The notes beneath the pieces are model-generated. The model did no database searches. It was not told the DNA's origin and saw only the letters and a program-made list of their open reading frames with translations. A stretch of DNA of 40,014 nt from Bacteroidales bacterium (lineage in GTDB: Bacteria > Bacteroidota > Bacteroidia > Bacteroidales > JAIPAP01): assembly GCA_021740045.1 (NCBI GenBank), contig JAIPAP010000028.1:1-40014 (forward strand), in the 5' to 3' direction. This document shows positions 15,255 through 23,267 of the stretch, piece by piece (within the stretch, counting starts at the first letter, position 1; each line of letters opens with the position of its first letter). The position numbers were made by a program, and so were the translations under genes.

Positions 15255-16673
15255 ATGAACAACGACTTTAATCAACATAATGATCAGTACAGCGAATTGC
15301 TTGTAAGGCGGTTTGAAGAGATGATCGATCACGGATCACAATACTTTTTTGATGTGGAGGACTTCGAGGCGATCATCGATCATTATTTCGAGAATAAAGA
15401 TATTAATAAAAGCCGTCTTGCCCTCGATTACGCCCAACAACAACATCCCACCAGCGTGAGCTTCCAGTTAAAACGGGCCAAACTCTTTGTATCGCTCAAC
15501 CAGGCTTCTAAGGCGCTTAACCTACTGAATGACATTGAGAATATCGACCCGTTCAATACAGAGATCTTTATGACCAAAGGCTCCATATACAGCCAGTTGC
15601 GCAACTATAATAAAGCGATTGAAGAATATAACAAGGCCATTAAGGAAGCTGAATCACCCGAGGAGGTCTATTCGAACATTGCCTTCGAATATGAAAACAT
15701 GGGCGATTATGACCGGGCCATTTATTTCCTGAAGCGAGCCCTGAAATACAGTCCCGAAAGCGAGTCGATACTGAACGAACTGGCTTTTTGCTATGAAATT
15801 ACCAACCGGCTTGAGGAAAGCGTAAGCTTTTTCACCACTTTTATCGATGAGCACCCTTACTCCAGAGCTGCATGGTTTAATCTGGGAGTAGATTACAACA
15901 ACCTGGATATGAGCGAAAAAGCCATAGACGCTTTCGATTTCGTAATTGCCATTGATCCATCCTATACCCCGGCATATTTCAATAAGGCCAACTCGCTGGC
16001 AACTATGGATAAACATACCGAAGCTATCCAGGCCTATACCGATTCCTTTGAATTCGAGGACCCGGATTCCATGACCTATTATTACATTGGTGAGGCTTAC
16101 GAAAAATTGACAAATTATAGTCAGGCAGCTTTTTATTATCGTAAATCCATTGAAAAGGATGAGATGTTTGCCGATGCATGGATGGGCATTGGAATGGTTA
16201 AGGATGAGATCGGTCATCATTTCCAGGCACTGCATTACATGTATAAAGCCATTAAGCTTGAGCCTGATAATCCGGAATATTGGTATATGTATGGCGACAC
16301 CTTATACAAAGCCGGTAAGATCAGTGAGGCCGAAAAGGCCTATAAGAAAGTGATCCGTCTCGATCCGACCAATAATGACATATGGGCTGATTATTCATCC
16401 CTCTACGATCAGCAGGGATCTTATGATAAAGCCCTTGAAATTATCGATCAGGGCATTAACCAGCAACCCGATAACGTGGATCTGGTATACCGCAAGGTAG
16501 CTTACCTGATGAGCGGCGGCAAGGTTAATGAAGCCATTAAACAATTTGCCATCGGGTTAATTATGAACCCTAAAGCTTATGGGGATCTGTTCGAATATGC
16601 GCCCGAACTCTCGGGTAACCCTGCCTTGATTCAGTTGATCCGCGAAGCCGATAGCGATAATAGTGAAAATTAA
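15255..16673 (+). CDS. Tetratricopeptide repeat protein
   Basis: The 472-residue product is made almost wholly of TPRs, about ten to twelve units from residue 35 to 450. Examples are RNYNKAIEEYNKAIKEAESP, GDYDRAIYFLKRALKYSPES, HFQALHYMYKAIKLEPDNPE and KISEAEKAYKKVIRLDPTNN. There is no signal peptide and no membrane segment, so it is probably a cytoplasmic scaffold. It is the first gene of a four-gene operon, 33 bp before comA. No enzymatic domain is visible, and a specific partner cannot be inferred beyond the operon neighbours. Confidence 0.88.
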   Translation: MNNDFNQHNDQYSELLVRRFEEMIDHGSQYFFDVEDFEAIIDHYFENKDINKSRLALDYAQQQHPTSVSFQLKRAKLFVSLNQASKALNLLNDIENIDPFNTEIFMTKGSIYSQLRNYNKAIEEYNKAIKEAESPEEVYSNIAFEYENMGDYDRAIYFLKRALKYSPESESILNELAFCYEITNRLEESVSFFTTFIDEHPYSRAAWFNLGVDYNNLDMSEKAIDAFDFVIAIDPSYTPAYFNKANSLATMDKHTEAIQAYTDSFEFEDPDSMTYYYIGEAYEKLTNYSQAAFYYRKSIEKDEMFADAWMGIGMVKDEIGHHFQALHYMYKAIKLEPDNPEYWYMYGDTLYKAGKISEAEKAYKKVIRLDPTNNDIWADYSSLYDQQGSYDKALEIIDQGINQQPDNVDLVYRKVAYLMSGGKVNEAIKQFAIGLIMNPKAYGDLFEYAPELSGNPALIQLIREADSDNSEN

Positions 16674-16706: not shown

Positions 16707-17522
16707 ATGAAGGAATTGCTGTCATATTTACCGGAGCGCCCGGAAAAGCCAAGAAATACCGGCGTAACCATGGTAATGGACAAAGGATTGAGTGTACGTG
16801 AGGCAGAAGACCTTGTTGACACAGCCGGAGAATTGATCGATTTTATCAAGCTCGGATTCGGCACTTGCATGGTAACCAATCATGTGGAAAAGAAAATCAA
16901 GATATATCAAAATGCCAATATTAAGGTATATTTAGGAGGAACCCTGTTCGAAGCTTTTTTGATCCGAGATAAATACGAAGAATTCAAAAAGTTCGTAAAA
17001 AAGCTTAAAATCGATGTGGTTGAAGTCTCCGACGGCTCCATCTACATTGATCATGATCGTAAATGTGAACTGATCAATGATCTATCGAAGGATTTCACGG
17101 TGCTTTCGGAGGTAGGCTCCAAGCAATCGGGCATCCTCATTGCCCCCACCAAATGGATCAATATGATGGAAACCGAATTGCAGGCCGGTTCTTTCAAGGT
17201 TATTGCCGAGTCGCGCGAAAGTGGGACGGTCGGGATATACAGGCCAAGCGGAATGCCCCATGTAGCGCTGGTAAGTAAAATTCTCTCCAAAATACCACTG
17301 GATAAGATATTGTGGGAATCTCCCCAAAAATCGCAGCAGGTATGGTTTATCAAGGAGTTTGGGGCAAATGTCAACCTGGGTAACATTGCACCTCACGAAA
17401 TCATCCCCCTGGAAACATTAAGGCTGGGATTGCGCGGCGATACTTTCTTCCTTAACCTGCCGGAGGAAATGAAAGAACTTGAACTCAAAGCCGAGGATTC
17501 AGAAGAAGATCAAGAAGAATAA
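16707..17522 (+). CDS. comA: Phosphosulfolactate synthase-like protein (ComA family)
   Basis: The 271-residue protein matches the ComA/YitD family. It shows the (beta/alpha)8 hallmarks GVTMVMDKGLSVREAEDLVD (about 20-39), IDFIKLGFGTCMV (46-58), KVYLGGTLFEAFL (73-85), VVEVSDGSIYI (103-113), VLSEVGSK (about 132-139) and VIAESRESGTVGIY. ComA adds sulfite to phosphoenolpyruvate, giving (2R)-phospho-3-sulfolactate, the first step of coenzyme M synthesis in methanogens. A bacterium of this group does not make methane, so the product may serve sulfonate or sulfonolipid (capnine-type) synthesis, or the enzyme may have another substrate. The acidic tail (SEEDQEE) is an ordinary extension. It lies between the TPR and DUF368 genes. 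Confidence 0.85.
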   Translation: MKELLSYLPERPEKPRNTGVTMVMDKGLSVREAEDLVDTAGELIDFIKLGFGTCMVTNHVEKKIKIYQNANIKVYLGGTLFEAFLIRDKYEEFKKFVKKLKIDVVEVSDGSIYIDHDRKCELINDLSKDFTVLSEVGSKQSGILIAPTKWINMMETELQAGSFKVIAESRESGTVGIYRPSGMPHVALVSKILSKIPLDKILWESPQKSQQVWFIKEFGANVNLGNIAPHEIIPLETLRLGLRGDTFFLNLPEEMKELELKAEDSEEDQEE

Positions 17523-17545
17523 CTTCCAAACGCTAATTGAACATT

Positions 17546-18472
17546 ATGTTGAGGCATGTTTTCACTGTCCTGAAAGGGATAGCTATGGGCGCCGCCAATG
17601 TGATCCCCGGGGTTTCGGGAGGAACCATCGCCTTGATCACCGGCATTTTTGAGCGATTGATCAATGCGATCAAATCATTTAATCTTACAGCCGCTAAGCT
17701 GCTTTTTTCGGGCAGGATTAAAAGTTTTATCCAGCATACCGACCTGTATTTCCTTTTTGCTGTATTTGGCGGGGTGATCATTGCCATTGTGACCCTGGCC
17801 CGGCTGTTCGACTTTCTTTTTCAACATTACCCCGTTTACATTTGGTCCTACTTCTTTGGACTGATCCTCGCCTCGGTTTATTTTGTAGGAAAAACAGTCA
17901 ATAAATGGACTGCCAGCGTAGTGATCACCTTTATTATTGGAACTGCAGCGGCAATTTCCATTACCATGCTTAATCCGGCAACCGAGAACGATGGTTTTAT
18001 TTATTTGATGCTTTGCGGGGTGGCGGCCGTTTGCAGCATGATACTGCCCGGGCTGTCAGGCTCGTTTATATTGATTTTAATGGGCAATTACCAACTGGTC
18101 GCCATTGATGCCATAAATAATGTGAGGCTCGATATACTATTTCCGGTTCTTATTGGGGCTATTGTTGGATTGCTGGGTTTTTCCCATTTGCTTTCATGGA
18201 TCTTCAAAAAATACAAAGATCAAACAATCGCTTTGCTCACCGGTTTTATTTTAGGATCACTCAGTGTGATCTGGCCCTGGAAAAACACCATTTATGCTAT
18301 GAACGAAGCGGGCGAACCACTTATAAAAGATGGGGAAAAGATCATAGCAAGGTATCAATTGACCTCACCCGGGCAATTCGACAATCATGTATTATTTGCA
18401 CTGGTGTTGATGGTCATTGGGTTTATCAGTATCGCACTTATAGAAAAATACGCCGAAGTAAAAGAAGGATAA
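17546..18472 (+). CDS. DUF368 polytopic membrane protein
   Basis: The product has 308 residues. The DUF368 signature is right at the start: GIAMGAANVIPGVSGGTIAL, followed by a second, related GxxxxxPGLSGS block (CSMILPGLSGSFILILMGNY) near residue 170. This pseudo-symmetric repeat is typical. Eight or nine membrane segments are apparent. The family has been linked to polyprenyl-phosphate flipping (PopT proteins); that role is from family knowledge and not visible here. The ATG at 17546 is preferred, with TTG at 17537 adding three residues as an alternative. The gene lies 23 bp after comA and 4 bp before aroE. Confidence 0.9.
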   Translation: MLRHVFTVLKGIAMGAANVIPGVSGGTIALITGIFERLINAIKSFNLTAAKLLFSGRIKSFIQHTDLYFLFAVFGGVIIAIVTLARLFDFLFQHYPVYIWSYFFGLILASVYFVGKTVNKWTASVVITFIIGTAAAISITMLNPATENDGFIYLMLCGVAAVCSMILPGLSGSFILILMGNYQLVAIDAINNVRLDILFPVLIGAIVGLLGFSHLLSWIFKKYKDQTIALLTGFILGSLSVIWPWKNTIYAMNEAGEPLIKDGEKIIARYQLTSPGQFDNHVLFALVLMVIGFISIALIEKYAEVKEG

Positions 18473-18476
18473 CAGT

Positions 18477-19226
18477 ATGACATTATACGGTCTTATCGGA
18501 TTTCCCCTTTACCATTCCTATTCGCAGGATTATTTCCGGCATAAGCTCGAGCGCGAGGGCATCACCGATGCGGCCTACCGCCTGTTTCCCATTGAAAACC
18601 TGGCAATGCTCCCCGAGATGGTGAGGGCTTATACCAACCTCAAAGGTCTTAATGTGACCATTCCATACAAAGAAGCGGTAATCAAATACACTCATCAGCT
18701 TTCGGAGCACGCGCGGAATATAGGTGCGGTGAATGTGCTGCACATCAGCAGGAGTGGTGAACAGCCAAAACTTACCGGTTTCAATACCGATTGGATCGCC
18801 TTTAGCGAATCATTGCAGCCCTTGCTTAAGGAACACCATCAACATGCCTTGGTACTGGGGACCGGTGGTGCAGCCAGGGCGGTTATTTATGCCCTGATCA
18901 AGCTGGGGATATCCTACCAGGTGGTAAGCCGTCAACCCTATGCCGGAAAGCACCTGGGGTATGGCGAGCTGAACCGGCAGATCATGAGAAAACACCGCCT
19001 TATTATTAATGCTACCCCGGTAGGAATGCATCCCGAGGAAGAGGAAGCCCCAGCCCTGCCCTATGAAATGCTCACACCTGATCACCTCTGTTATGATTTG
19101 ATCTATAACCCCGCTCTCACCGCATTCCTAAAGACCGCCCGCCGTTATGGGGCCGATACAAAAAACGGCCTGGAGATGTTTAAACGCCAGGCCGAAGAAT
19201 CGTGGAAAATCTGGAATGAGACTTAA
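18477..19226 (+). CDS. aroE: Shikimate dehydrogenase
   Basis: The 249-residue enzyme reduces 3-dehydroshikimate to shikimate with NADPH. Visible residues are the substrate loop GFPLYHSYSQDYF (8-20), LNVTIPYKE with catalytic Lys65, GAVNVL (Asn86), FNTDW with Asp105, and the nucleotide-binding loop GTGGAAR (128-134). NATPVGMHPEEEE and NGLEMFKRQAEESWKIW close the protein. The usual HSxSPxxHN is HSYSQDYF here, a variant I believe common in Bacteroidota. The short length suits a plain AroE without fusion. It is the last gene of the TPR-comA-DUF368-aroE operon and converges on the AsmA gene 10 bp away. Confidence 0.94.
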   Translation: MTLYGLIGFPLYHSYSQDYFRHKLEREGITDAAYRLFPIENLAMLPEMVRAYTNLKGLNVTIPYKEAVIKYTHQLSEHARNIGAVNVLHISRSGEQPKLTGFNTDWIAFSESLQPLLKEHHQHALVLGTGGAARAVIYALIKLGISYQVVSRQPYAGKHLGYGELNRQIMRKHRLIINATPVGMHPEEEEAPALPYEMLTPDHLCYDLIYNPALTAFLKTARRYGADTKNGLEMFKRQAEESWKIWNET

Positions 19227-22184: not shown

Positions 22185-23267
22185 TCAGGAATATCTTTTA
22201 TTGAGCAGGTAATGATCGGCCAGCACCAAAGCAGCCATGGCTTTAACGATAGGCACTGCCCTTGGGACCACGCACACATCGTGGCGGCCCTGGACCTGAA
22301 AACTTTGCGACTTCCCCTTTTTATCAACGGTTTGCTGTTGTTTACCTATGGAAGATACCGGTTTAAAGGCCACATTGAAAAAAATCTCCTCCCCGTTGGA
22401 GATCCCTCCCTGAATACCCCCTGAATAATTGGTGCGGGTTCTGATGTTGTTTCCCGCTTTATCATAATAAAACTCATCGGCATGCCGTGAACCTTGCATG
22501 GAAGCAGCTGAAAAGCCCGAACCGTATTCAAAGCCCTTAACGGCATTAATGCTTAACATAGCTTTGCCAAGGTCGGCGTGCAACTTATCAAAAACCGGTT
22601 CGCCCCATCCGGCCGGAACCTTGATTATGGAGCAGCTAATGATACCTCCGGCCGAATCGCCTTGCTGGCGAAGTTCATCAAGATAAGCTTTCATTTTTTG
22701 CGAAGCTTCCTGATCAGGACAATAAAGGGGATCGCCGGCGGCAACTTCAATTTCTTCCCTTGTGGGTTGTTTATTGCTTTGTATCACGCCAATCCGGCTC
22801 ACCCAGGCTGCAATATCCACCTTCTTTTCCCAAAGCAGTTGCTGCGCAAGGGCTCCTCCCACTACCCGGGCCACGGTCTCACGAGCAGAAGCCCTTCCCC
22901 CGCCTTTATGATCGCGGATACCGTATTTGCTTTGATAGGTATAATCGGCATGAGAAGGGCGGTAAAGGTCTTTAAGATGGCTGTAATCCTTGGAGCGCTT
23001 GTCTTTATTCCTGATCAGGAAAGCAATGGGCGTTCCCAGGGAAACACCTTCGGCAATTCCGGATAAAAATTCCACCTCATCCGCTTCGCGTCTCTGTGTG
23101 CTTCCTGCTTTGCTCCCGGGTCGTCGTTCCCGGAGCATAGCATCTATAAAATTAAAATCGATCCGGATACCGGACGGAAAGCCATCGAGCACACCACCTA
23201 TGGCAACACCATGCGACTCACCAAAAGTGGTAAGCCGGAGTATATGTCCAAATGTATTTGCTGCCAT
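22185..23267 (-). CDS. aroC: Chorismate synthase
   Basis: The 360-residue protein makes chorismate from EPSP using reduced FMN. Conserved blocks are TTFGESHGVAIGGVLDGFP (13-31), RRPGS (48-52), QRREADEVEFLSG (58-70), GIRDHKGGGRASARETVARV (117-136) and GRHDVCVVPRAVPI near the C-terminus. Family length and motifs are complete. The second aromatic-pathway gene of the window, it lies on the opposite strand from aroE with the AsmA gene between them. The gap to the upstream DUF349 gene is 69 bp, so cotranscription is possible. Confidence 0.96.
   Translation of the reverse strand: MAANTFGHILRLTTFGESHGVAIGGVLDGFPSGIRIDFNFIDAMLRERRPGSKAGSTQRREADEVEFLSGIAEGVSLGTPIAFLIRNKDKRSKDYSHLKDLYRPSHADYTYQSKYGIRDHKGGGRASARETVARVVGGALAQQLLWEKKVDIAAWVSRIGVIQSNKQPTREEIEVAAGDPLYCPDQEASQKMKAYLDELRQQGDSAGGIISCSIIKVPAGWGEPVFDKLHADLGKAMLSINAVKGFEYGSGFSAASMQGSRHADEFYYDKAGNNIRTRTNYSGGIQGGISNGEEIFFNVAFKPVSSIGKQQQTVDKKGKSQSFQVQGRHDVCVVPRAVPIVKAMAALVLADHYLLNKRYS

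Follow-up and report, generated by a model that had tools for sequence, protein, structure and literature searches.

A ComA-type protein as a putative source of cysteate for sulfonolipids in Bacteroidota

Introduction

What might a ComA-type phosphosulfolactate synthase be doing in a Bacteroidales bacterium, in an operon with a shikimate dehydrogenase gene? The question is raised by a 40,014-nucleotide stretch of DNA (here called the window) that makes up the whole of one contig, C25, of a 3.90-Mb assembly with 161 contigs (97.0% complete, 2.8% contamination). Sulfonolipids are tied to gliding, inflammation and signals to choanoflagellates in the portions consulted of PMC11211663 and PMC3463246, and the portion consulted of PMC10191378 describes two sources for the cysteate from which they are built: CapA (Capnocytophaga) and an archaeal-type cysteate synthase (Alistipes, Odoribacter). 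Because many Bacteroidota that carry the next enzyme, CapB, lack CapA, a third cysteate route would fill a gap. The genes that we found, and their co-occurrence across the phylum, make it likely that the window protein is a phosphosulfolactate synthase that would supply cysteate for sulfonolipids.

Results

The open reading frame at 16707–17522 (+ strand) is intact, begins with ATG and encodes a putative phosphosulfolactate synthase of 271 aa. Its original assignment as ComA-type stands: the protein covers the full PF02679 (ComA) profile at 1e-89 (300.6 bits against a cut-off of 25.2), a profile that does not by itself separate a divergent type 2 that also scores far above the cut-off, and the closest solved structures are the B. 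subtilis phosphosulfolactate synthase 1u83 (8.9e-54) and M. jannaschii 1qwg (1e-45). A Foldseek search with an AlphaFold2 model, for which 22 related proteins were used (mean pLDDT 89.1), ranked the same two TIM-barrel structures first, with values of 5.1e-24 and 3.1e-23 and TM scores by target of 0.94 and 0.88. The archaeal ComA equivalog TIGR03849 gives the window protein 263.3 bits, under its cut-off of 280, so we assign it to the ComA family and not to that equivalog. Three further ComA proteins from Bacteroidota also score under the cut-off (252.0, 268.2 and 243.9 bits).

Forty-three residues of the window protein are identical in all 24 aligned sequences (1u83, 1qwg, the window protein and 21 other Bacteroidota proteins). 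Among them is Lys139, which aligns with M. jannaschii Lys137, presumably the catalytic lysine. Across 140 ComA loci, in which the window gene is counted a second time as L222, Lys139 is always kept; all 43 residues are kept in 103 loci, and the other 37 differ in at least one. Loss of the residues that bind phosphoenolpyruvate or Mg2+ was named beforehand as grounds for abandoning the proposal; judged by sequence conservation, no such loss is apparent. The window protein has both the fold and the conserved residues of a phosphosulfolactate synthase. Promoter-like and terminator-like sites around comA were no more frequent than in shuffles.

The divergent type 2, represented by L046:2250–3203 (G003, family f14) and L047:2268–3092 (G282, family f24), shares about 25% identity with the window protein. 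It scores highly against Pfam, has Gln at the Lys139 position, lacks Arg170/Glu171 and is probably not a phosphosulfolactate synthase.

As originally described, comA lies in a tight operon on the + strand. A TPR-repeat protein gene recognized by TPR models (15255–16673) ends 33 bases before comA; a DUF368, or undecaprenyl phosphate translocase-like, gene (17537–18472; PF04018, 1e-88) starts 14 bases after it; and aroE, for shikimate dehydrogenase (18477–19226; PF08501, 7e-18), follows after a gap of 4 bases. The best NCBIfam models for the aroE product are shikimate dehydrogenases, every one of them scoring under its cut-off, and the chorismate synthase gene aroC (22185–23267) is found 3 kb away on the − strand.

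To place this arrangement among its relatives, we counted neighbors in 80 named comA loci, which are the top-ranking 80 out of at least 592 stretches and thus biased to close relatives, using as denominators the loci with enough sequence. Upstream, 74 of 79 loci have a TPR gene at most 300 bp from comA, and downstream we find a rhodanese gene within 900 bp (39/77), DUF368 within 1.5 kb (21/64) and aroE within 2.8 kb (29/64). The proposal that comA is functionally tied to shikimate metabolism, through aroE in the operon and the shared use of phosphoenolpyruvate, found no support beyond gene order: aroE is a neighbor in the 29 of 64 loci just given, and sugar-polymer genes, named by eye, adjoin comA in three loci of other lineages (L002, L020 and L024). 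The slot before aroE can be filled by DUF368, as in the window (17537–18472), or by a DedA-family gene (L066:7138–7770), both being relatives of undecaprenyl phosphate transporters.

Small rhodanese genes directly follow comA in, for example, L066:6774–7088, L083:6771–7073 and L057:6804–7121, and in four rhodaneses from comA loci the loop reads CRSGKR or CKSGKR. Enzymes of this kind are able to liberate sulfite from thiosulfate, and one beside comA is a possible sulfite source for a sulfite-requiring enzyme. There is no rhodanese between comA and DUF368 in the window.

Searching the rest of the genome, as had been suggested, returned ComB, a truncated ComC-family dehydrogenase and CapB/SulA. 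Each is a single match, on contigs C120, C67 and C71 (E ≤ 1e-80 for CapB), respectively, which agrees with the earlier observation that the window itself (C25) holds no ComB, ComC or capnine synthase gene. The ComB gene scores 213.2 bits against PF04029 (cut-off 26.4) and 115.7 bits against TIGR00298 (cut-off 175.05), with the other NCBIfam ComB models also under their cut-offs. The gene on C67 belongs to the Ldh_2 family, which includes ComC, reaches the PF02615 cut-off and is truncated by the contig end. Its best NCBIfam model is the L-sulfolactate dehydrogenase NF040650 (155.5 bits, 500 needed); a malate dehydrogenase is the closest structural match and ComC the third. For a full-length relative in genome G076, NF040650 is again the best model (261.7 bits against 500) and ComC comes second among structures. 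The C67 protein may thus act like ComC, though it is not filed as ComC.

The CapB/SulA gene is much closer to the solved cysteate-C-fatty acyltransferase 28eh (3e-184) and to 7u7h (7e-184) than to the serine palmitoyltransferase 3a2b (7e-69). Its Lys293 stands at SulA position 281, 30 residues after the PLP lysine, where a lysine has been proposed as a mark of SulA in the part consulted of PMC9304779. The same lysine is present in CapB of all 42 genomes checked, and two Kbl controls from the window genome have Asn there.

A cysteate synthase was not detected in the window genome, where four members of the PALP family, to which cysteate synthases belong, were found, none scoring as CapA. These were scanned against NCBIfam, and an archaeal-type cysteate synthase is absent from the models listed for them (for two of the four, the best 25 of 39–40 models). 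The CapA model NF053679 requires more than 600 bits, and its best score in the genome is 236.4 bits, for a CysK that is 38% identical to a CapA; there was no CapA match at E ≤ 1e-100. As the genome is 97% complete, these searches do not prove CapA absent.

We then asked how these genes are distributed among 296 genomes sampled from across the phylum, 73 of them from the window's class (a size deduced from list ordering). ComA outside methanogens had been singled out for notice and proves to be common, with matches in 76 of the 296 genomes (75 above the Pfam cut-off) and, in an order-level set, in 69 of 247. The count of 76 includes a sub-cut-off match in G019 (19.3 bits), which was dropped from the ComA/CapA/CapB table, a divergent ComA in G200 (126.8 bits), and G050 and G058, whose sole ComA match spans like type 2, judged by length. 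ComB occurs in 162 genomes, including all 76 with ComA; because it occurs without ComA in the other 86, ComB must have other roles or partners. B. subtilis, the control in both searches, has both genes.

Within the class, CapB is present in 70 of 73 genomes, and the three without it (G002, G230 and G238) also lack ComA and ComB. The 70 CapB genomes divide into 29 with ComA and no CapA, 36 with CapA and no ComA, and 5 with neither, so that other cysteate sources must exist. Ldh_2 genes accompany ComA in 27 of the 29 genomes (missing in G041 and G045) compared with none of the 36 CapA genomes; the best score is at least 391 bits in 26 of these 27, the window copy being a fragment. Ldh_2 genes of 310–343 bits are found in four class genomes without ComA, and the G261 gene is assigned by model to 3-dehydro-L-gulonate dehydrogenase. 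G261 (f3) has kept ComB and CapB and lacks ComA and a high-scoring Ldh_2, both of which its congeners G099 and G214 have, a small separate event of joint absence. Four f7 genomes (G064, G158, G162 and G178; L195, L196, L197 and L198) have CapB without ComA, ComB or CapA.

In family f24, from a different class, the 35 genomes with ComA are also the 35 with CapB. Only three of these (G171, G211 and G227) have an Ldh_2 match, so the sulfolactate step in this family would need another enzyme. Two further genomes outside the window's class, G179 and G219, also have ComA together with CapB. Nine others (five f14, three f36 and G200) have ComA but no CapB match at E ≤ 1e-80, and in G254 CapB is present and ComA missing. 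Contamination is an unlikely cause of the overall pattern, since ComA, ComB, Ldh_2 and CapB all lie on one contig in the single-contig genomes G033, G249 and G269.

Clustering of comA with comB or capB was not found, and no ComA-pathway genes were recognized in 19 CapB neighborhoods by all-against-all comparison and by eye. In two loci, CapB forms part of an ORF of about 1,100 aa, apparently a fusion (L208:5571–8897 in G219, f42; L209:2145–5576 in G254, f45), and a gene for a VOC-type protein, named by eye, adjoins the fusion in both.

The association is retained when families are taken as units: of 51 families, 11 have ComA and CapB, 3 ComA only, 4 CapB only and 33 neither (P = 8e-6), and ComA and CapA do not overlap in the 15 CapB families (P = 0.009). 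A CapB tree was built from 42 of the 108 CapB genomes (the 30 best-scoring plus 12 chosen, with one of the 35 f24 genomes, no f5 genome and no G037). On it the CapA label requires one change and the ComA label three, which makes the mutual exclusion of ComA and CapA close to a single switch, and the rows with CapA or 'neither' form a cluster that has ComA rows all around it.

As a control on CapA, 29 proteins were placed in a second tree, where the f6 CapA, the CapB-adjacent f5 proteins and the G037 protein, which has a long branch, cluster with support of 96/94. CBS-type proteins from eight ComA genomes fall outside this cluster, as do the second copies in f5, f6 and f7. We also accepted as CapA seven genes that score under the model cut-off (508–552 bits), since by coordinates they lie next to CapB; the tree places four of the seven in the CapA cluster. 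An order-level CapA search (0 of 247 genomes at E ≤ 1e-140) had a strict threshold and gave no match to a control, and it is not used as evidence here.

Discussion

Taken together, these genes suggest a route from central metabolism to a membrane lipid. ComA would join phosphoenolpyruvate and sulfite, in a Mg2+-dependent step, to give (R)-phospho-3-sulfolactate, from which ComB would remove the phosphate to leave sulfolactate. The ComC-family dehydrogenase, with sulfolactate as its presumed substrate, could oxidize this to sulfopyruvate, an ordinary aminotransferase might convert sulfopyruvate to L-cysteate, and CapB/SulA would condense cysteate with acyl-ACP to form 3-ketocapnine, the sulfonolipid base. 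In Bacteroidota that have CapB and lack CapA, such a route would replace CapA, which acts on phosphoserine and sulfite. The original proposal that ComA supplies the carbon–sulfur bond of sulfonolipids thus gains support of a comparative kind, from a gene set that recurs across the phylum. Several findings count against the route. The C67 gene is a fragment with malate dehydrogenase as its nearest structure and model scores far below cut-off; Ldh_2 is missing in two ComA genomes of the class (G041 and G045) and in all but three of the 35 in f24; a CapB match is missing in nine ComA genomes from outside the class, and ComA in the CapB genome G254; five class genomes with CapB must draw on some other cysteate source; the ComA/CapA exclusion is close to a single event; and comA is not clustered with comB or capB.

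Compared with the coenzyme M pathway (ComA–ComB–ComC), the window protein shares family, fold and conserved residues with the methanogen (1qwg) and Bacillus (1u83) enzymes, and its genome also has ComB and a ComC-family gene; it differs in falling under the archaeal equivalog cut-off and in its proposed end use, cysteate for a membrane lipid. With the CapA–CapB–CapC capnine pathway of Capnocytophaga and Chryseobacterium, the window genome has CapB/SulA in common, whereas no CapA was found in it and the carbon–sulfur bond would be made on phosphoenolpyruvate rather than phosphoserine. Alistipes and Odoribacter, offered originally as sulfonolipid-making relatives, are reported in the sections consulted of PMC10191378 to use an archaeal-type cysteate synthase. 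That route also feeds a CapB/SulA enzyme, and no such synthase appears among the models listed for the four PALP proteins found in the window genome. Judged by its genes, the route proposed here is probably a third cysteate supply for sulfonolipids, different from the two described.

It is also conceivable that ComA and ComB end at (R)-3-sulfolactate, as a solute or excreted sulfonate, with no part in sulfonolipids. Sporulating B. subtilis, which has ComA and ComB, makes sulfolactate according to the portion consulted of PMC11382572, the nine ComA genomes without a CapB match would fit such an end product, and the ComC step is the weakest link of the cysteate route. There is little reason, however, why a solute pathway should follow the source of cysteate, and in the class ComA is always found with CapB (29/29), never with CapA (0/36), and is accompanied by an Ldh_2 gene in 27 of 29 genomes, which leaves sulfolactate as an improbable end point. 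We give somewhat less credence still to the idea that CapB draws its cysteate from another, unrecognized enzyme, for instance one resembling cysteine or cystathionine synthase, and that ComA and CapB are associated through shared ancestry only. The ComA/CapA split does follow families, the CapB tree needing roughly a single switch, CBS-type CapA relatives do occur in ComA genomes, and in five class genomes CapB is present without either ComA or CapA. Yet the ComA–CapB association survives with families as units and is seen in two classes, the CBS-type proteins sampled from eight ComA genomes sit outside the CapA cluster with the f5, f6 and f7 second copies, and the window genome has no CBS-type CapA relative above E 1e-100.

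Least probable of all, and in our estimate very unlikely, is that the window protein is a ComA-family member with a different function, perhaps tied to its TPR/DUF368/aroE operon. Scores under the archaeal equivalog cut-off, here and in three other Bacteroidota proteins, could be taken that way, as could the TPR gene that precedes comA in 74 of 79 loci, and the divergent type 2 without the conserved lysine indicates that the family is able to drift. Against this stand the 43 residues identical in archaeal, Bacillus and 22 Bacteroidota proteins, Lys139 in 140 of 140 loci, and a ComB gene in every ComA genome.

Returning to ComA as a supplier of cysteate, we can extend the proposal to its history: ComA–ComB–ComC might be the ancestral cysteate supply for sulfonolipids in Bacteroidota and a neighboring class, with CapA having taken over later in a single lineage (families f5 and f6 and some of f7). 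We regard this as about evenly balanced between true and false; because the CapB tree is midpoint-rooted and has long branches, an ancestral ComA is a reading of that tree rather than a result. If true, most Bacteroidota that make sulfonolipids would be producing a membrane lipid by way of the first reactions known from coenzyme M synthesis in methanogens.

The individual enzymes are known; their combination for sulfonolipid cysteate, or any link between ComA and sulfonolipids, was not found in print among the open-access literature matches listed. One published case may bear on the proposal. In Labilibaculum euxinus, capnine lipids account for 24–33% of relative lipid abundance, and the reported 'CapA' is 32% identical to its query, according to the part consulted of PMC12927429. 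That identity is lower than the 38% between the window-genome CysK and a CapA, so a true CapA may be missing in this organism. A record from Marinifilum sp. (L122), a member of the Marinifilaceae, the same family as Labilibaculum, holds ComA.
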